Assembly: GCA_902798915.1 (NCBI GenBank)
Contig: CADBYM010000011.1
Span: 1-64,000, forward strand
From: an uncultured Coriobacteriaceae bacterium
GTDB taxonomy: Bacteria; Actinomycetota; Coriobacteriia; Coriobacteriales; Atopobiaceae
DNA length: 64,000 bases
Direction of reading: 5' to 3'
The notes under the pieces are model-generated. The model was not told the DNA's origin and made no database searches. It worked only from the letters and a program-made list of their open reading frames with translations. A program made the position numbers and the translations under genes. This document shows, one piece after another, positions 514-36,066 of the stretch. The stretch's first letter is position 1, and each line of letters starts with the position of its first letter.

Positions 514-720
514 GGACCTCGCGCTGGCTTGGCATAACGGCGTTGCGACGAGCCCCGGTGGGCACCCGATCAAGGCGTCACGGCAGGACGAAGTAGTCAG
601 CGCAGGAGCGCACGCCATTCTCAATGCCCGCGCGGATGTCGTCCTCCGTCGCCTCCTCACGACACAGCGCGCGGGTGCCATCCTCGAGCTCCAAGTCGCG
701 GTCGTACCGATACGCCCACG
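514..720. repeat. 207-bp direct repeat, left copy
   Basis: Aligns without gaps, at roughly nine bases in ten, with 2661-2867. The shared stretch covers sequence downstream of the lipoprotein gene at 2725-3384 plus its last ~47 codons. This copy ends where the 63-bp palindrome at 721 begins; the other copy continues into the intact lipoprotein gene. Confidence 0.9.
578..720 (-). pseudogene. orphan 3' end of a lipoprotein gene
   Basis: Reads on the minus strand through YRYDRDLELEDGTRALC and ends in CADYFVLP plus stop, matching the last ~47 residues of the intact lipoprotein at 2725-3384 with scattered substitutions. It has no start, signal peptide or upstream body; its 5' edge is the palindrome at 721-783. 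The differences from the intact copy show the duplication is not very recent. It is best seen as debris left when the AAA/PD-(D/E)XK gene next to it arrived, or by recombination between paralogues. Confidence 0.85.
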
Positions 721-783
721 TGGAACAGTGGACGGGTTTTTCGTTCCACCGATGGTGGAACGAAAAACCCGTCCACTGTTCCA
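721..783. repeat. 63-bp perfect palindrome (30-bp arms, 3-nt loop), left copy
   Basis: Arms 721-750 and 754-783 are exact reverse complements around GAT. The element contains GACGGGTTTTTCGTTCCACC and its complement, so a T-run is read in both directions and it could serve as a bidirectional terminator. A near-identical palindrome lies at 2586-2648. The two bracket the AAA-ATPase gene at 798-2405. Adjacent half-copies (ccagtgttcc at 781; tcccctgttcca at 2649) suggest a repetitive intergenic element. Confidence 0.9.
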
Positions 784-797
784 GTGTTCCAGGACAC

Positions 798-2405
798 TCA
801 CGCCTCCACGATGCGGCAGGTGTGCTCCTTGGTCCTGACGTCGTAGGTGACGGCCGCCACGAGGATCAGCACGCCCAGGTCGCGCAGGACCTGGGGGTAG
901 TCGCGTTCGAACACCTGGTCGACGGCCGCGCGCACAGGCTTATCCCACTTGAGCTCCACGAGCAGTGCCGGCCGGTCCGTGCCCGCCCTCGACAGGTAGG
1001 CCACGTCGGCGAAGCCTCGGCCGGAGGGCAGCTCGTCCACGCACGCCCAGTCGTCGACAGCCGCCACGAGCGCAGCCTTCACGACGGCACGCAGCGCCTG
1101 CTCGTCGTTGTAGTGCAGCGGCGAGCAGGCCACGTCGTGAGCACGCCCGATGGCGGCGGCCACCGCCTCCCCGTCCCCGGCCATCACGTCCTCCACGAGC
1201 CGCATGGAGTCGCGCATGACGCGGGCGAGCCTCGGGTGGCGGCTCTCCTCCGCCGCGCGCCTCAGCTCCCCGCGCACCTCCTCGTTGGGCACGTGAGCAC
1301 GCTTGGCGTCGATGTCGAAGCACAGATAGCCCAGGTGCACAAGCAGGGTGAGCGCGTCGTCGCGGCTGGCCACGGCAGCCATGTCGTTCTGGAACTTGTA
1401 CGGGTCGACGCGCAGCTCCTCTCCGCCGATAGCGCGCAGCACGTCGGCCTGCAGGCCGTCGAAGTCCATATCGATGTAGCGCCGCAGCTCCTCGAAGGTC
1501 TCGGTGGAGGGCCAGTAGGAGCCGGTCCTGCGCCTGGCGCAGGCGCGCATTACCGAGTAGGGGGCGTATGTCGCAACGTGGTCGGGCTCACCAGGCGCAG
1601 GATCGAACGCCGGCAGGTCGTATCCGTCGTACCACCGACGCACGTCGGTCAAATCCAAGCCACGCTTGGCGCAGAGCCGTTCCACCTCGTGCTCGTTGAA
1701 GCCCACGTACGGCACGTACTGGCCGGGGTCGACCATCGTGTACTCGTCGAAGTCCGAGACGGCGCTCTGGTGGGCGTACTTCTTGATGGGTTGGATTCCG
1801 GTCATGTAGGCGCCGGCAACGACCTCGGCGGTGAGATTCGCGTTCTTGAAGATGCTCCGCAGCCAGTCGGCGTAGGCATCCTGCGCGGCGGTGTTCCCCT
1901 GCGCCAGGCGGTAGGGCGCGTCCCACTCGTCGATGACGAAGACGAACTTTCGGTCGGTTGTCTGCACAGTGTCCCAGAGGGCAGAGGCCACCTCGGATTT
2001 CTTGTTCGACGCACCCGACCCGGCACCCGGCGCCAGTTCCCGCAGCTCGGGCAGCACCGCGTGCGCAATAGCAGCAACCGCGTCTGCGCCCTCCGCGGCC
2101 TGCATGATGCCCGCCATGTCGAGGCGCAGCACGTTGAACGCGTTGAGGTTGGCGTCCCACCCCTCTTGCCGCGCAACGTCGCGGCCCTCAAAGAGCACCC
2201 GCGAGTCGCAACCGCAGCTGTAGAACGCTGCGAGCGACTGTGCCGCGTAGCTCTTGCCGAATCGCCTGGGGCGGCTCACCATCACGAGGTTCCTCGGACC
2301 GTTGAGCGTGGAGTCGAAGAGCGAGACGAGCCCCGTCTTGTCCACGTACTCCTCGCCGACTATTCTCGTGAATCCCTCGTTGCCCGGGTTTACGTAGCGC
2401 CCCAT
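798..2405 (-). CDS. AAA-ATPase-like protein with C-terminal PD-(D/E)XK nuclease-like domain
   Basis: A 535-residue protein of the type common in multiple copies in gut anaerobes (AAA-ATPase_like plus PDDEXK_9 architecture). The N-terminus carries an atypical Walker A, SRPRRFGKS, at residues 44-52 and a Walker B-like FVFVIDEWD at 154-162. The C-terminal domain has GFADVAYL followed by LLVELKWDK (E484, K486), matching a PD-(D/E)XK fold. Start at ATG 2405 after GAGGAGGGAA. The cellular role of this family is not established; ATP-driven nuclease or mobile-element functions are guesses. The gene is bounded by palindromes at 721-783 and 2586-2648 and by 207-bp direct repeats, so it looks like a discrete inserted cassette. 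Confidence 0.85.
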   Translation of the reverse strand: MGRYVNPGNEGFTRIVGEEYVDKTGLVSLFDSTLNGPRNLVMVSRPRRFGKSYAAQSLAAFYSCGCDSRVLFEGRDVARQEGWDANLNAFNVLRLDMAGIMQAAEGADAVAAIAHAVLPELRELAPGAGSGASNKKSEVASALWDTVQTTDRKFVFVIDEWDAPYRLAQGNTAAQDAYADWLRSIFKNANLTAEVVAGAYMTGIQPIKKYAHQSAVSDFDEYTMVDPGQYVPYVGFNEHEVERLCAKRGLDLTDVRRWYDGYDLPAFDPAPGEPDHVATYAPYSVMRACARRRTGSYWPSTETFEELRRYIDMDFDGLQADVLRAIGGEELRVDPYKFQNDMAAVASRDDALTLLVHLGYLCFDIDAKRAHVPNEEVRGELRRAAEESRHPRLARVMRDSMRLVEDVMAGDGEAVAAAIGRAHDVACSPLHYNDEQALRAVVKAALVAAVDDWACVDELPSGRGFADVAYLSRAGTDRPALLVELKWDKPVRAAVDQVFERDYPQVLRDLGVLILVAAVTYDVRTKEHTCRIVEA

Positions 2406-2585
2406 GTCGCGTTCCCTCCTCGCCCGCTCAGCCCGCGCACATTATACCTCGTGGCAAGGGACTCCACCGGGGGCTGGCCACCGTACGCAGGGGTGCGCCC
2501 GCCGGCGCGTCCCGTGCCGCTCGCGGGCAGTGGCGGACGGATTGGCGTGAAACGCTGTGCCACCTGCGTGCGAGTGAGTCGATGG

Positions 2586-2648
2586 TGGAACAGGGGACGG
2601 GTTTTTCGTTCCACCGATGGTGGAACGAAAAACCCGTCCCCTGTTCCA
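2586..2648. repeat. 63-bp perfect palindrome (30-bp arms, 3-nt loop), right copy
   Basis: Arms 2586-2615 and 2619-2648 are exact complements around GAT. It differs from the left copy only by a GTGG-to-GGGG change that is compensated in the other arm, so hairpin pairing has been conserved. Apart from this element and the direct repeat starting at 2661, the gap 2406-2724 holds no gene that I can support. Confidence 0.9.
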
Positions 2649-2660
2649 TCCCCTGTTCCA

Positions 2661-2867
2661 GGACCTCGCGCTGGCTTGGCATAACGGCGTTGCGACGAAC
2701 CCCGGTGGGCACCCGATCAAGGCGTCACGGCAGGACGAAGTAGTCAGCGCAGGAGCGCACGCCGGCTTCCATGCCCGCGCGGACGTCGTCCTCCGTCACC
2801 CCCTCGCGACAGAGCGCGCGGGTGCCATCCTCGAACTTCAGGTCGCGGTCGTACCGATACACCCACG
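2661..2867. repeat. 207-bp direct repeat, right copy
   Basis: Partner of 514-720. It begins 12 bases after the palindrome at 2586-2648 and runs into the 3' end of the intact lipoprotein gene at 2725-3384. Confidence 0.9.
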
Positions 2868-3384
2868 CCCCGTCCTTCCACACGGCCTTGACGCCCGCCT
2901 CATAGAAGAGAAGGTCCCCATCCGCATAGTCTCCGATGCGCGTCAGGCCGTAGCAGTTTTCCTCCGTCGTGGGAAGATTGAGATTGTCGGGCGCAATCTC
3001 CTCGCAGCTGCTCACGTCCTCGATCTCGGGGTAGTCCACGTAGCCAGCGATGCCCCCGTTGAGATACGTCACGTCCGCGACGGCCTTGTAGAACTTGCCC
3101 TCCTCCAAGGATTCGTACCACGGGAATTGCACGGTTTGCGGATGCTCGACCGTGATGACCTTATCCTCATAGGGAAAGACGTAGAGCACGGCGCCAGAGA
3201 CACGGTCGTTCCACATCTGGTCGGTGGACGTGTCGTCGATCTCGACGACCTCGACCCCGTCGTCCCCTCCCGTGGATTGTCCGGGAGAAGTGCAGCCTCC
3301 CAAAGCCAGCACCGCCATCAGGAGAACGGCGGCACCAAGCGACAGATGCCTCATGCATTTGGCCGATACGATCATCCGAGTCAT
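2725..3384 (-). CDS. secreted lipoprotein of unknown function
   Basis: A 219-residue exported protein. A basic start, a hydrophobic stretch and a lipobox (LALGGC, Cys31) mark a signal peptidase II substrate anchored by lipid at the cell surface. The mature part has VADVTYLNGGIAGYVDYP, a CEEIAPDNLNLP segment and a YGLTRIGDY motif, all repeated in the truncated paralogue at 3397-3921. No enzymatic motif is visible. ATG 3384 is preferred because AGAGGA lies 7 nt upstream; Met11 is possible. Its last ~47 codons are duplicated at 578-720. Function is not recognised. Confidence 0.8.
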   Translation of the reverse strand: MTRMIVSAKCMRHLSLGAAVLLMAVLALGGCTSPGQSTGGDDGVEVVEIDDTSTDQMWNDRVSGAVLYVFPYEDKVITVEHPQTVQFPWYESLEEGKFYKAVADVTYLNGGIAGYVDYPEIEDVSSCEEIAPDNLNLPTTEENCYGLTRIGDYADGDLLFYEAGVKAVWKDGAWVYRYDRDLKFEDGTRALCREGVTEDDVRAGMEAGVRSCADYFVLP

Positions 3385-3396
3385 GGCTTGTTCCTC

Positions 3397-3921
3397 TCAC
3401 AAATCGTGGACTGAAATCGCGGACTGCGACCGATGCATCACATGCGCTCGTACACCGGTATGGACTCGAGCGGCGCGGCGGCCACGAACTCGGCCGGGCC
3501 CTCCGTCACCGAGCCGTCGCGCAGGTCGCGCCACGTGCCGACGGGCAGGTACACCGTCCGCTCGCGCGCGCCCAGCTCGAGCACCGGCGCCACCAGGTAG
3601 CGCGGCCCAAACAGCGGCAATGCCGAGCTCGTGGAAGAGCAGCTCTCCCTCGGCGTAGTCCCCGATGCGCACGAGCCCATAGCGCGTCTCTTCGAGCGTC
3701 GGCAGATCGAGCTCGTCGGGCGCGACCTCCTCGCAGCTCGCGACCGAGTTGACCTGCGGGTAGTCCACGTAGCCCGCGACGCCGCCGTTGAAGTACGTCA
3801 CGTCCGCGACGACCTCAACGGCCTCGCCGCCTTCGTCGCCCGGCGCGGCGCAACCGCCCAGCGCCAGCCCGACGGACAGAATCGACGCCGCGGCAAGCCT
3901 TGCGATGGATAACGTCTTCAT
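3397..3921 (-). pseudogene. chimeric lipoprotein: truncated paralogue fused out of frame to a GH31 3' end
   Basis: Starts at ATG 3921 with a signal peptide and lipobox (GLALGGC) and follows the lipoprotein at 2725-3384 closely through NGGVAGYVDYP, CEEVAPDELDLP and YGLVRIGDY to GIAAVW. At about 3612-3620 the similarity stops and DNA matching the 3' end of the GH31 gene (9214-9394) begins. The lipoprotein frame enters the GH31 DNA in the wrong frame, giving about 70 low-complexity, Arg/Ala-rich residues to a stop at 3397. A shared GTTTGG/ATGTTTGG at the joint suggests short-homology recombination. The product would be a lipoprotein with a nonsense tail, so I treat it as broken, though it is still an open frame of 174 codons. 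Confidence 0.8.
3438..3611 (-). repeat. duplicated 3' end of the GH31 gene
   Basis: Encodes, in the GH31 frame, FGPRYLVAPVLELGARE onward to IPVYERM plus stop. It matches the final ~57 codons of the glycosidase at 9214-11220 almost base for base, with only a few changes such as GTW for GTW preceded by Val instead of Ala. It lies inside the chimeric frame at 3397-3921 and has no start of its own. Confidence 0.85.
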
Positions 3922-3995: not shown

Positions 3996-4034
3996 AAAAG
4001 TGGCACACTCTCCCGGGGAGAGTGTGCCACTTTT
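3996..4034. terminator. 19-bp perfect stem bidirectional terminator
   Basis: Arms 3996-4014 and 4016-4034 are complementary around base 4015, with four A before and five T after, so it can act in both directions. It lies between the chimeric lipoprotein and the large adhesin gene (both minus strand). Confidence 0.8.
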
Positions 4035-4097
4035 TGCGGGGCGATCAGTTGGAGTACTCCCCTTCTAATCGGTTGGGGGTACTCCCCTTCTGATTAA

Positions 4098-4193
4098 ACG
4101 GGACGCCGCTCCCGGGGAGATTGTCCCGAACGGGACGCCGCTCCCGGGGAGATTGTCCCGAACGGGACGCCGCTCCCGGGGAGCGGCGTCCCG
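4098..4193. repeat. three tandem 32-bp units ending in a terminator hairpin
   Basis: Units start at 4098, 4130 and 4162 with the core GACGCCGCTCCCGGGGAG. The first two continue as ATTGTCCCGA; the third continues as CGGCGTCCCG and so forms a complete 15-bp hairpin (4163-4177 / 4179-4193) directly after the stop of the adhesin gene at 4197. The same hairpin occurs at 9156-9186 after the GH31 gene. The flanking 4043-4097 holds related GGGGGTACTCCCC and GATC-type half palindromes. Confidence 0.85.
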
Positions 4194-4196
4194 CGA

Positions 4197-7100
4197 TCAG
4201 ACGAATGCCTTGGCGTATTGCTGCTTCACGCCCTCGTAGGTGGTGCCGGGGGCCTTGGCGCCCTTGGGGAGAAGGACGATCTGGACGGCCTCCCCGCGCT
4301 TGGCCTGGCCCTCGGTGCCGGCCTTGGCGCCGTTCTTGGCCCACGCCATCCAGCCGTAGGTCTGGGCGTGCACGCGGTAGTAGACGTCGTACTTCTTGGC
4401 CATCTGGCCCGTGAGGCGGACCTGGATGGCCTCGAGGCGCCTGGACTGGCCGGTGGTGCCGCACGTGGCCCCGTCCTTGGCCCAGGCCTTCTCCCAGCCG
4501 TAGGTCTGGACGTGGGCGCGGTACTCGATGCCGCCCGCCACGGGGAAGGACTTCCCCAGCTTGAGCTGGATGGCTTCCAGGCGCAGGCCCTTGCCGGAGG
4601 TTCCGATGACGGCCGAGCCGCCCTTGGCCCAGGCCTGCCAGCCGGTGCCCTGGACGTGCGCGCGGTCGGAGCAGCTCGGCGCCACGACCTTGAAGGTGGT
4701 CTTCACGGTGCCCGCGTAGTTGCCCTTGCCCTTGGCGGTGACCGTGGCGGTGCCGGCCTTGACGTTGTTCTTGTAGGAGTAGGAGAAGTCCGTCCCGGCC
4801 TCGAGCGCCCTCTTGCCGGCCTTCACCGCGGGCTTGGGCTTGATGGCCTTGCCGGTGTAGCCCTGCGCCGCGACCTCGGCGATGCTCGTGATCTCGGCGG
4901 GCGAGATCTGGAAGGTCGTGGAGACGCTGCCCGTGTAGCCGCCCTTGCCCTTCGCCGTCACGGTCGCCGTGCCGGCGTTCACGTTGGCCTTGTAGGAGAG
5001 CGTGTAGTCCGTGCCGGCCTTGAGCGTGGCCTTCCCGGCCTTCACGGCGGGCGTGGGCTTGATGGCCTTGCCGGTGTAGGTCTTCGCCGCGACCTCGGCG
5101 ATGCTCGTGAGCTTCACCTTGGCGGGCGTGGCCTTCGCGATGGTGAACGCCTGCGTGGCCTTCGCGGGGAGCTTGTAGTTCGCGTTGGAGAGCTTGGTGG
5201 CCGTGGCCGTGTGGGAGCCGGCCGCCTTGGCCGCGCCGGTCACCGTCACGGAGCACTTGTCGCCGGCGGCGAGGTTGCCCACGGCGGCCGTCGGCACGTG
5301 GCTCTTGCCGTCGTAGGTGAAGGAGGTGTTCTTCCAGGCGAGCTTGGCCTCGCGCTGGGCGATCGCGAACGCCTGCGTGGCCTTCGCGGGGAGCTTGTAG
5401 TTGGCGTTCCCGAGCTTCGTCGCGGTGGCGGTGTGGGAGCCGGCCGCCTTGGCCGCGCCGGCCACCGTCACGGAGCACTTGTCGCCGGCGGCGAGGTTGG
5501 AGACGGTCGCCGTGGGCGCGTGGCTCTTGCCGTCGTAGGTGAAGCTCGTCCCCTTCCAGGAGAGCTTGGCCTCGCGCGGGGCGACGGTCGTCTTCACCGA
5601 CTTGGCCGCGAGGTCGCCGTGGTTGGCGTCGCCCCTGACCCGGTACCAGACGTGGTAGGTTCCAGCTTTGGTCCCTGTAGGGATGGATGTGGTATAAGGT
5701 TGTGTTGCTTCGGTTGCGGTGCCGAGAGCGTACTGCATCTCGCCGCCGGTTGCTTCGCCGGTAACGGTCACCAGAGGCTTCTCCGTCCCGTCGTAAGTGC
5801 GACTGTTCGCGGTAACCGTAGCAGCGACAGCATTCGCCTTGCCAACCGTCACAGTCACGTCCACGTCGGAAGCGGCATTGTGGTTATCATCTCCGGCGAA
5901 GTTCGCCTTGAAGGTCGCCGCCGGGTCAACGACATTGCCGACGCTCTGCGTGCTGTCTGCCCATGTCCAGCCATCGGGCAGCGTCACGTTTGCCAGCGTT
6001 TGCCCGTAGGTGGCGGTCAGGCCGGTCGGCGCGGTGGGATCGGCCTTGCCAACCGTCACAGTCACGTCCACGTTGGACGCGGCTTTATAGTTATCATTTC
6101 CGGCAAAGTTTGCCTTGAAGGTCGCTGCCGGGTCAACGACATTGCCGACGCTTTGCGTGCTGTCTGCCCATGTCCAACCGGTGGGCAGCGTCACGTCCGC
6201 CAGGGTCTGCCCATAGGTAGCAGTCAAGCCGGTCGGCGTAGTCGGGTCTGCAGCGGAGACCGTCACGCTCACGTCCACGTTGGATGCGGAATTGTAGTTG
6301 TCATTTCCGGCAAAGTCTGCCTTGAATGTGTTGCTGCCAACGTTGCCAACGCTCTGCATGCTGTCAGCCCATGTCCAGCCAGTGGGCAGAGCCACATCGG
6401 ACAGTTTCTGCCCGTAGGTGGCAGTCAGACCCGTCGGTGCGGTGGGATTTGCCTTATTCACCGTCACGTCGCAGCTTGCGCTCTTGTTGGCGTCCGCGTT
6501 GCTGGTGACGGTGACGGTTGCGCTGCCCGCCGCGATGCCCTTGGCGTAGACGGTCAGGGTCTCGGTGGCTGTATCCAACGTGACCTCGTTACCCGCGGTG
6601 CAATCCGCATCGGTGTACAGCGTCACAGCATCCGCGTTCGTTCCGTCAACGCTCCACTTCACCATTTTATCCAGCACGCCGTCGGGCTGGATGGAAGCCG
6701 TGAAGGCAACGACACCGTCAATGTCGATGGTCTGCGCCTCGGACGGATTCAGGGTCACTGCGCTGACGGAAATCAGCTCCGCATTGGGAATGGCGATGCT
6801 CGCATCGTTGTTGGGCGTGCCGCTGACGGTGACCGTCGTCTCATTGGTGCGTGTGGCAGTGACGCCGTTGCTGGTTTTGTTGTTGAACGGCGCGAAGTAG
6901 TAGCCGCTGTTCGCAGTATAGGTCACGGTCTCCATCGCGCCGGTCAGGCCGCGCTGCGTTGTTTTGCCCTCCGGCGTCACCACCGCATTATCGCCGCCCG
7001 TCAGGGTGACGGTGCGCTTGTGCGTGGCGGCGCGGGCGGTGTAGGTCACGTCGTCCGTGGGGGTGCCGCTGATGGTCACCGTCGCCTCGTCCACGCGGGA

Positions 7101-8483
7101 CATGGTGAGGCCGTTCACGCCGATGTCGTTGAACGCCGTAAAGAAGTAGCCGTCGTCAGAATCATTGTTGTTGGCCGTGAAGGTCACGGCGGCAATCGGG
7201 TCGCCCGTGTGGATGAGCTGGAACGCCTCGCCCGCCGTCATCGTCGTGTTCGCACCGGCGGTGAGATTGACCAGCCAGGAGAATTGCAGACACTGGGCGG
7301 TGTAAGTATCGGACGAACTTGCCGCAATCGTGCTGCCGTCGTCACGATTCTTGCCAGGGATGTCGTTCGTCACCGTGCCGGCCACGGCGATGGCGGGTGC
7401 GCCTTCATCGCCCCAATTGCCAGACTCGGCCATCCAATCAGCATACGCATAACCCTCTGCATCATCATATATAACGTGGTCTCCGCCGTCGCCCGCCAAG
7501 CCACCGCTGCCTCCATTGCCGCCGTATACATAGGCGTAACCGTCGCCCACGGTCAGGCTGCCGCAGATCGCCACCTCGCCGCCGCCGCCGTTGGCGCCGT
7601 TGGCGCCGTTGCCGGGATCCTGCGCCTCATAACCATAGCCGCCGTAGCCGCCGTTGCCGCCCCAGCCGCCGTCGCCGCCGTCGCCGCCCCAGCAGTGCAG
7701 GATGCCGCTGTTGACGAGGACGCTGCCCTCGACGCCCGCCGCGCCTTTGCCGCCGGCCCCGCCGTCGCTGCCGTCGTCGCCGTCATAGCCATCCTCGCCC
7801 CAGCCGCCGTCGCCGCCCCTGCCGCCGTGGATCTCCACCTCGGCGCCGTTGACGACCAGCGTGCCATTTGCGCCCATCACGGCGGCGTGGGGGGCGTTGG
7901 TGCCGGGCACGCCATAACCGTCGCCCTCTTCGCCCCCTGCGCCGTTCACGACCAGCTTGCCGCCGCCCTCGACGGTCAGGGTATAGCTGTCAAGGTGAAT
8001 GCCGCCGTTGATGGTGAGCGTCACGCCTTCGCTGATGGTCAGCGTCATGTTGCTGTTGACGGCAAGGCCGTTAATCGTTTGAGTAGCGGAAATCGTTTGA
8101 TCCGAGACCCATGTTGTGGACGGAACAAACGGGCCACTCATCTCACTCATCTTCGGCGCTTCCGTGACGGTCTCCCCTTCGGATTCCTCCTCCAGGACTT
8201 CCTCTGTCACCGACTGCCCCTCGGTGGGCTCCTCAGGCTCCTCCGTGACGGGTTCCTCCGCCGGAGCGGCCTTCTCAGGCTCCTCCGTGACGGGTTCCTC
8301 CGCCGGAGCGGCCTCCTCCGGCTCCTGAATTTCCGCTTCTTCCGTCTGCTGGACGCTCTCCACGTCCGGGGTGTCCTCCGGCTCGATCTCTGCGGCCCAG
8401 CCGGTGGCGCTGAGCATACCCAGCGTCATGGAAAGGGTCAACAGCAGAGCGATGAGCCGTTGTCCGGTGTTGGTTCGTTTCAT
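4197..8483 (-). CDS. large secreted ChW-repeat, Ig-like-repeat surface protein (chimeric)
   Basis: 1428 residues from ATG 8483, chosen because AAAGGAGGT precedes it and a signal peptide (Lys-Arg start, hydrophobic core ALLLTLSMTLGML, AAE cut site) follows. Order: acidic repeats of EEPVTEEPE (~residues 40-110), a glycine-rich collagen-like stretch (~215-310), Firmicute-style repeats with SGTP, three ~66-residue repeats containing GWTWADSTQSVGNV, two MBG-like repeats with TYDGKSH, two repeats with YTGKAIKP, and three C-terminal ChW repeats with GW and RLEAIQ motifs (~1265-1420). ChW repeats are known from clostridial surface proteins; attachment or glycan binding is inferred. There is no LPXTG or TM anchor. 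DNA upstream of ~5640 (coding N-terminal two thirds) is visibly less GC-rich than the C-terminal part, so the gene looks like a fusion of two sources. Confidence 0.85.
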   Translation of the reverse strand: MKRTNTGQRLIALLLTLSMTLGMLSATGWAAEIEPEDTPDVESVQQTEEAEIQEPEEAAPAEEPVTEEPEKAAPAEEPVTEEPEEPTEGQSVTEEVLEEESEGETVTEAPKMSEMSGPFVPSTTWVSDQTISATQTINGLAVNSNMTLTISEGVTLTINGGIHLDSYTLTVEGGGKLVVNGAGGEEGDGYGVPGTNAPHAAVMGANGTLVVNGAEVEIHGGRGGDGGWGEDGYDGDDGSDGGAGGKGAAGVEGSVLVNSGILHCWGGDGGDGGWGGNGGYGGYGYEAQDPGNGANGANGGGGEVAICGSLTVGDGYAYVYGGNGGSGGLAGDGGDHVIYDDAEGYAYADWMAESGNWGDEGAPAIAVAGTVTNDIPGKNRDDGSTIAASSSDTYTAQCLQFSWLVNLTAGANTTMTAGEAFQLIHTGDPIAAVTFTANNNDSDDGYFFTAFNDIGVNGLTMSRVDEATVTISGTPTDDVTYTARAATHKRTVTLTGGDNAVVTPEGKTTQRGLTGAMETVTYTANSGYYFAPFNNKTSNGVTATRTNETTVTVSGTPNNDASIAIPNAELISVSAVTLNPSEAQTIDIDGVVAFTASIQPDGVLDKMVKWSVDGTNADAVTLYTDADCTAGNEVTLDTATETLTVYAKGIAAGSATVTVTSNADANKSASCDVTVNKANPTAPTGLTATYGQKLSDVALPTGWTWADSMQSVGNVGSNTFKADFAGNDNYNSASNVDVSVTVSAADPTTPTGLTATYGQTLADVTLPTGWTWADSTQSVGNVVDPAATFKANFAGNDNYKAASNVDVTVTVGKADPTAPTGLTATYGQTLANVTLPDGWTWADSTQSVGNVVDPAATFKANFAGDDNHNAASDVDVTVTVGKANAVAATVTANSRTYDGTEKPLVTVTGEATGGEMQYALGTATEATQPYTTSIPTGTKAGTYHVWYRVRGDANHGDLAAKSVKTTVAPREAKLSWKGTSFTYDGKSHAPTATVSNLAAGDKCSVTVAGAAKAAGSHTATATKLGNANYKLPAKATQAFAIAQREAKLAWKNTSFTYDGKSHVPTAAVGNLAAGDKCSVTVTGAAKAAGSHTATATKLSNANYKLPAKATQAFTIAKATPAKVKLTSIAEVAAKTYTGKAIKPTPAVKAGKATLKAGTDYTLSYKANVNAGTATVTAKGKGGYTGSVSTTFQISPAEITSIAEVAAQGYTGKAIKPKPAVKAGKRALEAGTDFSYSYKNNVKAGTATVTAKGKGNYAGTVKTTFKVVAPSCSDRAHVQGTGWQAWAKGGSAVIGTSGKGLRLEAIQLKLGKSFPVAGGIEYRAHVQTYGWEKAWAKDGATCGTTGQSRRLEAIQVRLTGQMAKKYDVYYRVHAQTYGWMAWAKNGAKAGTEGQAKRGEAVQIVLLPKGAKAPGTTYEGVKQQYAKAFV
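5830..6446 (-). repeat. three tandem ~200-bp repeats inside the adhesin gene
   Basis: Each unit encodes GLTATYGQ, then L-P-(T/D)-GWTWADS, QSVGNV and an AGNDN-type ending in VDVTVTV. Units two and three are nearly identical at the DNA level, which makes copy-number change by slippage or recombination likely. Confidence 0.85.
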
Positions 8484-8664
8484 GGTTGATCTACCTCCTT
8501 TGATTTTGCGCCGCACAGAGCAGCGTGGTTTATGGTTTGAACGCAAAAACCGCCGAGGCTGGCAAAGGGTGCAATACCCCGTCAAATCCGACGGTTATCC
8601 ATCACGAATGCTGTATGCAGTTTCAAGCGCCCCGCAAGACGCAAAAAGGGCGCAGTTAGCCCAT

Positions 8665-9155: not shown

Positions 9156-9186
9156 CGGGACGCCGCTCCCGGGGAGCGGCGTCCCG
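9156..9186 (-). terminator. 15-bp hairpin after the GH31 gene
   Basis: Arms 9156-9170 and 9172-9186, the same sequence as the hairpin at 4163-4193. A second small palindrome (GATCGG ... GGGGGTGCCCCC ... CCGATC, 9188-9215) overlaps the stop codon. Confidence 0.75.
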
Positions 9187-9213
9187 CGATCGGTCGGGGG
9201 TGCCCCCTTCCGA

Positions 9214-11220
9214 TCACATGCGCTCGTAGACGGGGATGGCGTCGAGCGGCGCGGCGGCCACGAACTCGGCCGGGCCCTCCGTCACCGAGCCGTCGCGCAG
9301 GTCGCGCCACGTGCCGGCGGGCAGGTACACCGTCCGCTCGCGCGCGCCCAGCTCGAGCACCGGCGCCACCAGGTAGCGCGGCCCAAACATGAACTCGTCG
9401 TAGGTCTCCCACGCACGGTCGTCACCCGCGAACTCGTAGAAGAGCGCCCGCAGCAGCGGGCTGCCGTCCGCGCTCGCCTGCTCGTAGAGCGAGGCGATGT
9501 AGGGCCGCAGCTCCTCGCGCAGCGAGAGGTACGCACGCATGATGCGCTCCGCCTCCTCGCCGTACTGCCAGAGCTCGGTGGGCTGACCAGTGAAGAGGTA
9601 GCCACCGCCGAACTCGCGGTCGTCGAGCGGCGGGATGTCGAACGGCCCACGGTTTCCGTGAAGGCGCAGCACCGAGGTGAAGGTGCCGAATTGGAACCAA
9701 CGGATGAGAAGCTCGACGAAGTCCGGGTCGTGCCAGTCGTCGGCCATGAAGCCACCCACGTCGGTGCACCACCACGGGATGCCCGCGAGCCCCATGTTGA
9801 TGCCGCACTGCAGCTGGTCGCGCAAGGCCTCGAAGGTGCCGGGAACGTCGCCCGACCACACCACGTTACCGAAGCGCTGACTGCCCGCCCATGCGCTGCG
9901 CAACAGGTTAACGGGCTTCTCCCACCCCTCGGCGACCTGCGCGTCATACACCACGCGGCTGTACCACTGCGGGTAGATGTTCGAACACGCAAGCGCGGGC
10001 CCCTGCCAGTACCGGTAGTTGTCGAAGTCGTACATGGCGAAGTCCGGCTCGGCGTTGTCGAGCCAGAACATGTCGATGCCGAAGTCCGCGTAGTTCGCGC
10101 GCAGGATGTCCCACAGATACGCCCGCGCCTCGGGGTTGGTGCAGTCAATCTCCAGGCAGTCGCCCTGATAGTCGTAGGTCTGCATCGCCCCGCGCTCCGT
10201 CTGGATGAGGAGCCCGCGCTCAAACATCTCCTTGAAGTGCGTGCTCTTCTTGTCCACGCTCGGCCACACGGAGGCGCACACCTTCACGCCCATCTGGTGT
10301 AACTCGTCGCACATGGCCTTGGGGTCGGGCCAATACGTGCGGTCGAAGCACCAGTCGCCCTGGCGCGGCCAGTGGAAGAAGTCGATGACGATGACGTCGA
10401 TGGGCACGTTGCGGCGCCGGCACTCGCGCGCGACGGCGAGCACCTCCTCCTGCGTGCGGTAGCGAAGCTTGCACTGCCACAGGCCGATGCGGTCGGTCGG
10501 GAAGGCCGGCGCGCGGCCGGTGACGGCGGTGTAGGTGCGCAGGAGGTCACGCGGCTCGTCTCCCACGCACACCCAGTAGTCCAGCCCCTTGGCGCACTCG
10601 GCGATCCACTCCGTGAGGTTCTCGCCGAAGGTCACGCGGCCGACGGCGGGGTTGTTCCACAGGAAGCCGTAGCCCAGGCTCGAGACGCAGAACGGCACGC
10701 TCACCTGCGAGTTTCTCTGCTCGAGGTCGAGGATGCAGCCCTTGAGGTTGGTCTGGGGCTGCTGGTACTGCCCCATGCCAAAGAGCTTCTCGCCGTCGTT
10801 GGCTTCGAAGCGCTGGACGATGCGCCAGTCGCCACCGACATGCGCCTTGTACGTGCGACCCTCCATCCTCATGCAGTGGCTCTCGCGACTGATGGTGCCG
10901 TCGTAGCTGCGGAAGTGCTCGCGCAGGATCAGCTTCCCATCGCGGAAGAACGAGAGCACGCCGCTGACGTTGACCTCGCACGCGACGCGTCCGTTGGTGA
11001 TGCGCCACGCCGTGTGGTCCTCGCCCACGCAGGGGGCCTCGACCTGCTCGACGCTCGCCTCGGTGACGTCCGGGCTCAGGGCGAGCGCCCAATTCTCGTC
11101 GCTGAACTGCGCGTATCGGGTCGTCCGCACGCGCAGGGCGTCGGCACCCCATGCCTCGATGCGCAGCGTCTCTCCGTTGCGACGCCCCACAAACAGGCCG
11201 TCGGTCCTCTCAATAATCAT
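9214..11220 (-). CDS. glycoside hydrolase family 31 alpha-glycosidase
   Basis: 668 residues with GH31 organisation: N-terminal beta-sandwich (1-240), a barrel containing IDVIVIDFFHWP (274-285), the nucleophile motif FWLDNAEPD with Asp388, the acid/base region VVWSGDVP with Asp458, and a C-terminal beta domain (FGPRYLVAPVLELGARE). No signal peptide, so it probably acts in the cytoplasm on imported alpha-linked oligosaccharides. Motifs do not settle between alpha-glucosidase, alpha-xylosidase and sulfoquinovosidase-type specificities. ATG 11220 is chosen over an upstream in-frame codon because GGAGGAGAG lies just before it. The last 57 codons are duplicated at 3438-3611. No transporter is adjacent. 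Confidence 0.9.
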   Translation of the reverse strand: MIIERTDGLFVGRRNGETLRIEAWGADALRVRTTRYAQFSDENWALALSPDVTEASVEQVEAPCVGEDHTAWRITNGRVACEVNVSGVLSFFRDGKLILREHFRSYDGTISRESHCMRMEGRTYKAHVGGDWRIVQRFEANDGEKLFGMGQYQQPQTNLKGCILDLEQRNSQVSVPFCVSSLGYGFLWNNPAVGRVTFGENLTEWIAECAKGLDYWVCVGDEPRDLLRTYTAVTGRAPAFPTDRIGLWQCKLRYRTQEEVLAVARECRRRNVPIDVIVIDFFHWPRQGDWCFDRTYWPDPKAMCDELHQMGVKVCASVWPSVDKKSTHFKEMFERGLLIQTERGAMQTYDYQGDCLEIDCTNPEARAYLWDILRANYADFGIDMFWLDNAEPDFAMYDFDNYRYWQGPALACSNIYPQWYSRVVYDAQVAEGWEKPVNLLRSAWAGSQRFGNVVWSGDVPGTFEALRDQLQCGINMGLAGIPWWCTDVGGFMADDWHDPDFVELLIRWFQFGTFTSVLRLHGNRGPFDIPPLDDREFGGGYLFTGQPTELWQYGEEAERIMRAYLSLREELRPYIASLYEQASADGSPLLRALFYEFAGDDRAWETYDEFMFGPRYLVAPVLELGARERTVYLPAGTWRDLRDGSVTEGPAEFVAAAPLDAIPVYERM

Positions 11221-35265: not shown

Positions 35266-35795
35266 CTACAAAGGGGGCTGTCCTCCGCGAGACACCAAGA
35301 GTCGGTTGACCGCGATAACGTCGCGATGCCGCACGTCACGCGGTTCGAAGTGCAAGAGCTGATACACCATCTGCATGACGGCGCCTGCTCCGAAGGCCGA
35401 GAGCAGGGTTCCCACGCCTACCGGCCCTCCGAGCAGCCATCCCGCAACGGTGACCATCGACCACAACGCAATATGGACCACGCCGATGGGCACGCGTGGC
35501 AGGCGTTTGCCGAGTCCGACCAGCAAGGCGTCGCGCGGACCGCAGCATTGGCACGCGCGCATATAGATCCACATGCCCACCGCCATGATGGCAAAACCCA
35601 CGAGCATCATGGCGACTCCGGACAGAACGCCCTCGCACGGCTCGAGCGGACTCACATCGTTGAAGAGCTGCACGAAGTTGCCTGTCAGCAGCGCATCGAT
35701 GATGGTTCAAGAGCCGTAAGATGCACGCCAAAGGAGAATGTCAGCAATCCGAATGCGATCTGCACCCATTCGAGCACGATGCGCGTGTGCGTCAT
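35266..35795 (-). pseudogene. frameshifted YczE/YitT-like membrane protein
   Basis: The 5' frame starts at ATG 35795 with THTRIVLEWVQIAFGLLTF and stops after SFGVHLT plus ten unrelated residues. A second frame resumes as IDALLTGNFVQLFNDVS at ~35700 and continues through four hydrophobic segments with ACQCCGPRDALLVGLGKR to a stop at 35266. Together they form one YczE-type integral membrane protein (DUF6198/YitT-related), interrupted by a frameshift or small deletion around 35700. A functional product is unlikely unless the sequence has an error. Confidence 0.7.
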
Positions 35796-35820
35796 CTGAC
35801 GGGGCGGGTCACTTGTCACG

Positions 35821-36066
35821 CTACGCGACATTGGCCGCCAGATAGGCGATGATGTCATCACTCTCGTACATCGGCTCGCCGTCGATGATGAGGCAGGGCA
35901 CCTGCGCTTTGCCGCCGAGGGCCACGAGCCGCTCCTCGGCACCCTCCTCGGTCTGCAGGCAATGCATCGTCATGGTTATGCCATGCTCCTCCATGTAGTC
36001 GAGAACCTTGCGGCTGTAACCGCAGAAGTTGCGATAGTAGAGCTCGAGGCTGCTCGTGTCACTCAT
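35821..36066 (-). CDS. glutaredoxin-like thiol protein
   Basis: 81 residues from ATG 36066 (GAAGGAG 6 nt upstream). LELYYRNFCGYSRKV carries a one-cysteine CGYS active site, QVPCLIIDG has the cis-proline, and ESDDIIAYLA closes the fold. This is the size and layout of monothiol glutaredoxins and GST N-terminal domains. It may reduce or glutathionylate-type modify protein thiols, or help iron-sulfur handling. The broken membrane gene follows it after 26 bp. Confidence 0.85.
   Translation of the reverse strand: MSDTSSLELYYRNFCGYSRKVLDYMEEHGITMTMHCLQTEEGAEERLVALGGKAQVPCLIIDGEPMYESDDIIAYLAANVA

Follow-up and report, generated by a model that had tools for sequence, protein, structure and literature searches.

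A PF09820 gene block bounded by REPIN-like palindromes has probably moved as a unit in a Coriobacteriales genus

The window analyzed in this work, 64 kb of contig C11 of genome G000 (GCA_902798915.1), carries a PF09820 gene enclosed by two palindromes, and the explanation that we favor, and judge to be reasonably probable as a whole, is that the palindromes belong to a REPIN/RAYT family and bound a gene block that moved as one unit. We observed a family of such repeats in G000, a single transposase gene with arms of this family on both sides, a nearly identical block in another context in the sister genome G014, and further junctions flush with REPINs.

The original prediction described two nearly identical 63-bp palindromes that differ by a compensatory change, and this was confirmed. 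P1 (positions 721 to 783) and P2 (2586 to 2648), neither assigned to a strand, each consist of two inverted 30-nt arms that are 100% complementary and a 3-nt GAT loop; they are 97% alike, and their sole difference is one paired change, G/C to T/A, which gives GTGGAC/GTCCAC in P1 and GGGGAC/GTCCCC in P2. No other perfect palindrome with arms of at least 20 nt and a loop of at most 10 nt occurs in the window, and no arm-like site appeared in 20 Markov-randomized windows. The energies calculated for the P1 and P2 DNA hairpins were -38.7 and -39.4 kcal/mol (z about -13), and both elements have the inverted REP arms and short spacer, able to fold as a hairpin, of a REPIN. The GTAG at the stem foot that characterizes GTAG-type REPs was absent from the arm sequence, and an Rfam search of the first 5 kb of the window returned no known RNA elements. 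A 12-nt partial arm (TCCCCTGTTCCA, 2649 to 2660, no strand assigned), seen directly in the sequence, follows P2.

A genome search located the palindrome family on many contigs of G000 (54 matches, both strands counted), with 25 exact arm matches against none for the reversed control. The copies are scattered across the genome, beside or within many unrelated genes, as a dispersed multicopy population above chance, and 11 of the 24 palindrome clusters in the loci retrieved are a simple inverted pair of arms. Of 16 genomes of the genus, 12 carried the arm motif, none of the 84 further genomes searched had it, and the controls gave almost no matches; the family is restricted to the genus. G000 has exactly one Y1 transposase gene (Pfam PF01797, scoring above its own cut-off), whose match to NF047646, REP_Tyr_transpos (E=5e-15, 55.7 bits), lies under the curated cut-off of 80. 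In G000, G014, and G003, arms of the family enclose this single-copy gene as arm>-RAYT-<arm, and a RAYT remnant was also found in contig C108. A candidate HUH motif (DNHFHLLV) and a candidate tyrosine motif (YAGYFNRVHRHDG) were recognized by eye in the RAYT-like protein, and a sequence search against the PDB gave no match. The majority of arm copies are in genomes that possess a close RAYT. G014 (52 arm copies) and G003 (31 copies), which have more arms than G000 (25 copies), hold the closest relatives of its transposase (96 and 87% amino acid identity, respectively), and G013 has 8 copies and a relative at 64%; G006 contains 16 arm copies, yet its RAYT is present only as a distant copy and a fragment. 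These sequence features make it highly probable that the palindromes are REPINs of a RAYT (REP-associated tyrosine transposase). The AAA_14/DUF4143 gene that adjoins the RAYT gene (contig C2, L008 10401 to 11741), which PADLOC calls PDC-S01, is about 99% identical to its G014 counterpart, the surroundings being 87 to 95% identical.

The interval between P1 and P2 holds one gene (798 to 2405, minus strand), bracketed by both palindromes and by both 207-bp repeats as proposed at the outset, that codes for a 535-aa protein. An ATPase combined with a nuclease-like fold had been predicted for this protein. The ATPase is well supported by an N-terminal match to PF09820, AAA-ATPase_like (E=8e-22, 78.4 bits against a cut-off of 26.1), and by Walker A (RPRRFGKS) and Walker B (FVIDEWD) motifs. 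The C-terminal region had no Pfam match even at E<=10, but residues D467 and E484-x-K486 are invariant across 12 homologues, the predicted model of the domain (pLDDT 69, medium confidence) shows the alpha-beta-beta-beta-alpha-beta order expected for PD-(D/E)XK, and weak fold matches, none below E=0.001, were obtained to PD-(D/E)XK proteins such as Wolbachia Cin/Cid and Holliday-junction resolvases. Therefore, a protein made of a PF09820 ATPase and a C-terminal PD-(D/E)XK nuclease-like domain is the likely reading. Relatives of the 535-aa protein score PF08011. PADLOC gave no defence-system match for the protein, and it had no match in the PDB by sequence.

Window positions 754 to 2648 align with G014 contig C88 (L088, 134 to 2004) with 98.9% of the aligned bases identical, whereas the other 500-bp windows aligned between these genomes show 92.8% identity at the median and 98.4% at the 95th percentile; between 0 and 4% of these background windows reach the identity of the block's windows, and the value of 98.9% is high, not unique. 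The homology ends exactly at the outer edge of P2, the sequence beyond being unrelated (gene Y in the window and another PF09820 gene in G014), and REPIN arms lie on both sides of the 535-aa protein gene in both genomes. On the P1 side the window has the repeat R1, and the G014 contig ends inside an array of at least five arms. The place of the block in G014 is syntenic with contig C1 of G000, where a REPIN is present and neither PF09820 gene is. The occurrence of a 98.9% identical block at a non-orthologous place, against a median of 92.8%, suggests that the REPIN-gene-REPIN block changed place, and probably species, as one unit. The earlier idea of a cassette moving with its hairpin ends is thus upheld in that the gene and both hairpins behave as one block stopping flush at P2, and stays incomplete at the P1 edge, where the boundary is only partly visible. 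No empty site for the block was found, the syntenic G014 contig C20 ending at about window position 4855, and plasmid or phage carriage found no match in either annotated collection and none in viral contigs. The loop of P1 and P2 is GAT, whereas, with the gene in the same orientation, that of the palindrome at 1943 to 2003 of L088 in G014 is ATC, the reverse complement, as an inversion of the gene between the REPINs would produce.

Comparison of G000 with G014 revealed flush junctions and presence/absence differences at other REPINs. In contig C28 of G000 a REPIN cuts off an RpiR regulator whose G014 counterpart retains the SIS domain, a GH1 gene stops short at a REPIN, at the 3' end in G000 and, further, at the 5' end in G014, and in contig C45 of G000 the sequence common to G014 ends flush at a REPIN. 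In G014 contig C17 two REPINs enclose an operon of three genes, one of them for a flavodoxin, and the matching site in contig C14 of G000 has a REPIN and 208 bp in their stead, the outer flanks being conserved on both sides; judged by their sequences, the two sites would form an occupied/empty-like pair, and no clean single-REPIN empty site was found in this comparison. From the truncations, the flush stops, and the differences in gene presence, it follows that REPIN edges are recurrent breakpoints between the two genomes.

A possible, if somewhat unlikely, history is a passive one, in which REPINs, whose usual sites are gene 3' ends and intergenic gaps, would have inserted independently on each side of an ordinary gene, the block would have been exchanged later between species by ordinary homologous recombination or within a larger transferred fragment, and the REPINs would mark the breakpoints. 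The many unrelated genes with REPINs alongside are in line with such a history, as is the fact that a REPIN was found beside the homologue of the 535-aa protein gene at none of 14 other loci of the genus, within the stretch retrieved; nevertheless, it does not readily account for the end of homology precisely at the outer border of P2, for arms on both sides of the gene in both genomes, or for several further junctions that are also flush with REPINs. A 16-kb island of G000 missing from the corresponding G014 site (contig C14, 10322 to 26582; L005, L159), which contains type I restriction genes and two PF09820 genes, has a REPIN at its left edge only, and this too would fit passive exchange.

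The palindromes had been expected beside other PF09820-type genes, and the search for them there showed that they lie mostly elsewhere. Only 2 of the 23 PF09820 matches in G000 have REPINs nearby, both on two sides (contigs C11 and C14, the latter being gene PF09820a). In G014 such contacts were found in contigs C88 (two genes), C139 (two sides), and C132 (one side), and in G003 in contig C35; gene PF09820c is bracketed by REPINs in C139 of G014 and its 88% counterpart in G000 has none. The chance expectation is below one contact, a rough estimate that takes about one gene per kb and two genes touched by each cluster. These data suggest some enrichment of REPINs by PF09820 genes, although the two may just occur in the same variable regions. 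The majority of REPIN clusters adjoin other genes, many of them unrelated, and most PF09820 genes lack REPINs, and the reading of the palindromes as dedicated hairpin ends of this gene family was dropped.

The two 207-bp direct repeats of the original prediction are present, in the same orientation and 93% identical. R1 (514 to 720, plus strand) holds a 3'-terminal piece of a lipoprotein-type gene that P1 cuts off flush, the repeat ending exactly at the P1 start; R2 (2661 to 2867, plus strand) starts where the P2 side ends, directly after P2 and the 12-nt partial arm, and comprises the 3'-terminal part of gene Y and the 64 bp that follow it. Gene Y (2725 to 3384, minus strand, 219 aa) has no Pfam match and an apparent lipoprotein signal recognized by eye, and R1 corresponds to the R2 stretch without the remainder of this gene. 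A composite transposon with a 207-bp target duplication, as was proposed earlier, would explain why R1 ends and R2 starts where the palindromes do, and in the same orientation, but we consider it very improbable. A duplication made on insertion should diverge equally along its length and be no older than the block, whereas R1 and R2 are a mosaic with 1 mismatch in 103 positions of the first part (which includes non-coding sequence) and 14 in 104 of the last, at all codon positions, and they differ by 7%, against 1% for the block between genomes; R1 and R2 look older than the block. R1 and R2 therefore do not behave as direct repeats of equal age at an insertion point, and the uneven divergence led us to reject the duplication. 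Moreover, the same place already holds Z, a partial paralogue in tandem with gene Y (3607 to 3912, minus strand; about 73 to 75% nucleotide identity over 188 to 209 bp), with a GH31 fragment next to it (3437 to 3613), and a block lying between the remains of two tandem paralogues means that P1 and P2 limit the shared length of R1 and R2 automatically. Single-strand HUH transposition is not known to generate target duplications, which also counts against this proposal. R1 and R2 would thus be, from their alignment, a mosaic of 3'-terminal sequence from a lipoprotein-type gene with a tandem paralogue, and a 75-bp remnant of a gene Y-type 3' end lies near the block in G014 as well. Because Z and a copied GH31 fragment adjoin gene Y, fragment duplication is common here. 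The GH31 piece is a 177-bp C-terminal end that occurs twice in the window (3437 to 3613 and 9213 to 9389, 96.6% identical), the copy beside Z being apparently fused to it.

An assembly artefact, with contigs misjoined through the 63-bp palindromes (which are probably shorter than the reads), is very improbable, even though the main weakness of the case is that these are draft assemblies, whose breaks at repeats may be errors, every junction lies at repeats, and contig ends are near the block in both genomes (C88 of G014 and C11 of G000), because the P1 variant differs from P2, the layout with arms on both sides is found independently in two assemblies, and similar brackets surround other genes.

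According to the REPIN/RAYT explanation that we favor, P1 and P2 would be REPIN-like elements served by the single RAYT-like Y1 transposase of the genome, and REPINs would insert in and beside genes, including around the PF09820 gene. Short-homology recombination between REPINs could then delete, swap, or relocate the intervening DNA or, alternatively, the RAYT could act on the outermost arms, arm> ... <arm, a layout like that of arm>-RAYT-<arm; RAYT activity, which way the block was transferred, and the precise course of the recombination are our inferences. R1 and R2 would be leftovers of a tandem lipoprotein-type gene family where the block settled, the rest of the R1 copy having been lost up to P1. 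The anatomy of the block, with arm> on the left and <arm on the right like the RAYT gene, would allow composite transposition, but the stronger proposal, that the RAYT mobilizes host genes as composite REPIN-gene-REPIN cassettes and so drives the spread and reshuffling of PF09820 ATPase/nuclease genes between species of the genus, is unlikely.

Inverted REP arms in one hairpin, many copies, a single Y1 transposase flanked by the same arms, and additional tandem or single arms are features shared with described REPIN/RAYT systems (Bertels and Rainey 2011, PMC3116915; TnpA-REP, PMC8266576), from which the present family differs in arms without GTAG, in only about 25 copies, in its Coriobacteriales host, and in the bracketing of whole genes. 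Similarly, GTAG/CGTC REPs and TIR-flanked RAYTs (TIRtrons; PMC3733652) include a RAYT-like gene between inverted repeats and repeats sometimes within genes, but the GTAG end tag is absent from the arms here; in that work one gene cluster flanked by repeat arrays, the EPS genes of Thauera, was reported, and an effect on expression, not mobility, was proposed. According to PMC8049555, nothing points to significant horizontal movement of REPINs at the species level, whereas here one REPIN-bracketed block is common to two species at high identity. The DUF1703 family, proteins with PF09820 and PF08011, is expanded in Cardinium cCpun (PMC6387759) and resembles the present case in its two-domain architecture, many divergent paralogues per genome, and signs of transfer and recombination; the C terminus of the window protein lies below Pfam detection, and REPIN brackets are not described for Cardinium in the sections consulted.

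REPINs are viewed as elements tied to their host, passed on vertically, and copying nothing but themselves. In composite transposons and MITE-flanked cassettes, copies of a small mobile element lie on either side of a gene with the outermost ends inverted, as in the window block; by contrast, this block is a putative unit, and no target duplication can be attributed to it. If our explanation is correct, REPIN pairs that bound an interspecies block of 99% identity, together with the flush junctions, would make REPINs agents of gene exchange and loss, and REPIN blocks would be a route for the spread of a large, unexplained PF09820/PD-(D/E)XK family of gut bacteria. REPINs may therefore help whole genes to move or to be reshuffled, and the 207-bp repeats are not a simple insertion scar.

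Further features were noticed around the block. A homologue search with the left flank (1 to 513) retrieved only a paralogue of the truncated gene at the contig edge (1 to 177), which is 95% identical at contig C34 of G000 (35669 to 35845) and has weaker paralogues in the same contig. A second family of short palindromes with 32-bp tandem units (GGGACGCCGCTCCCGGGGAG...) occupies positions 3996 to 4034, 4097 to 4193, and 9156 to 9191, with an identical 36-bp copy near 9156. Finally, a very large predicted protein (4197 to 8585, minus strand) has a C-terminal repeat region (window positions about 4200 to 5100) with dozens of related copies in the genomes of the genus.
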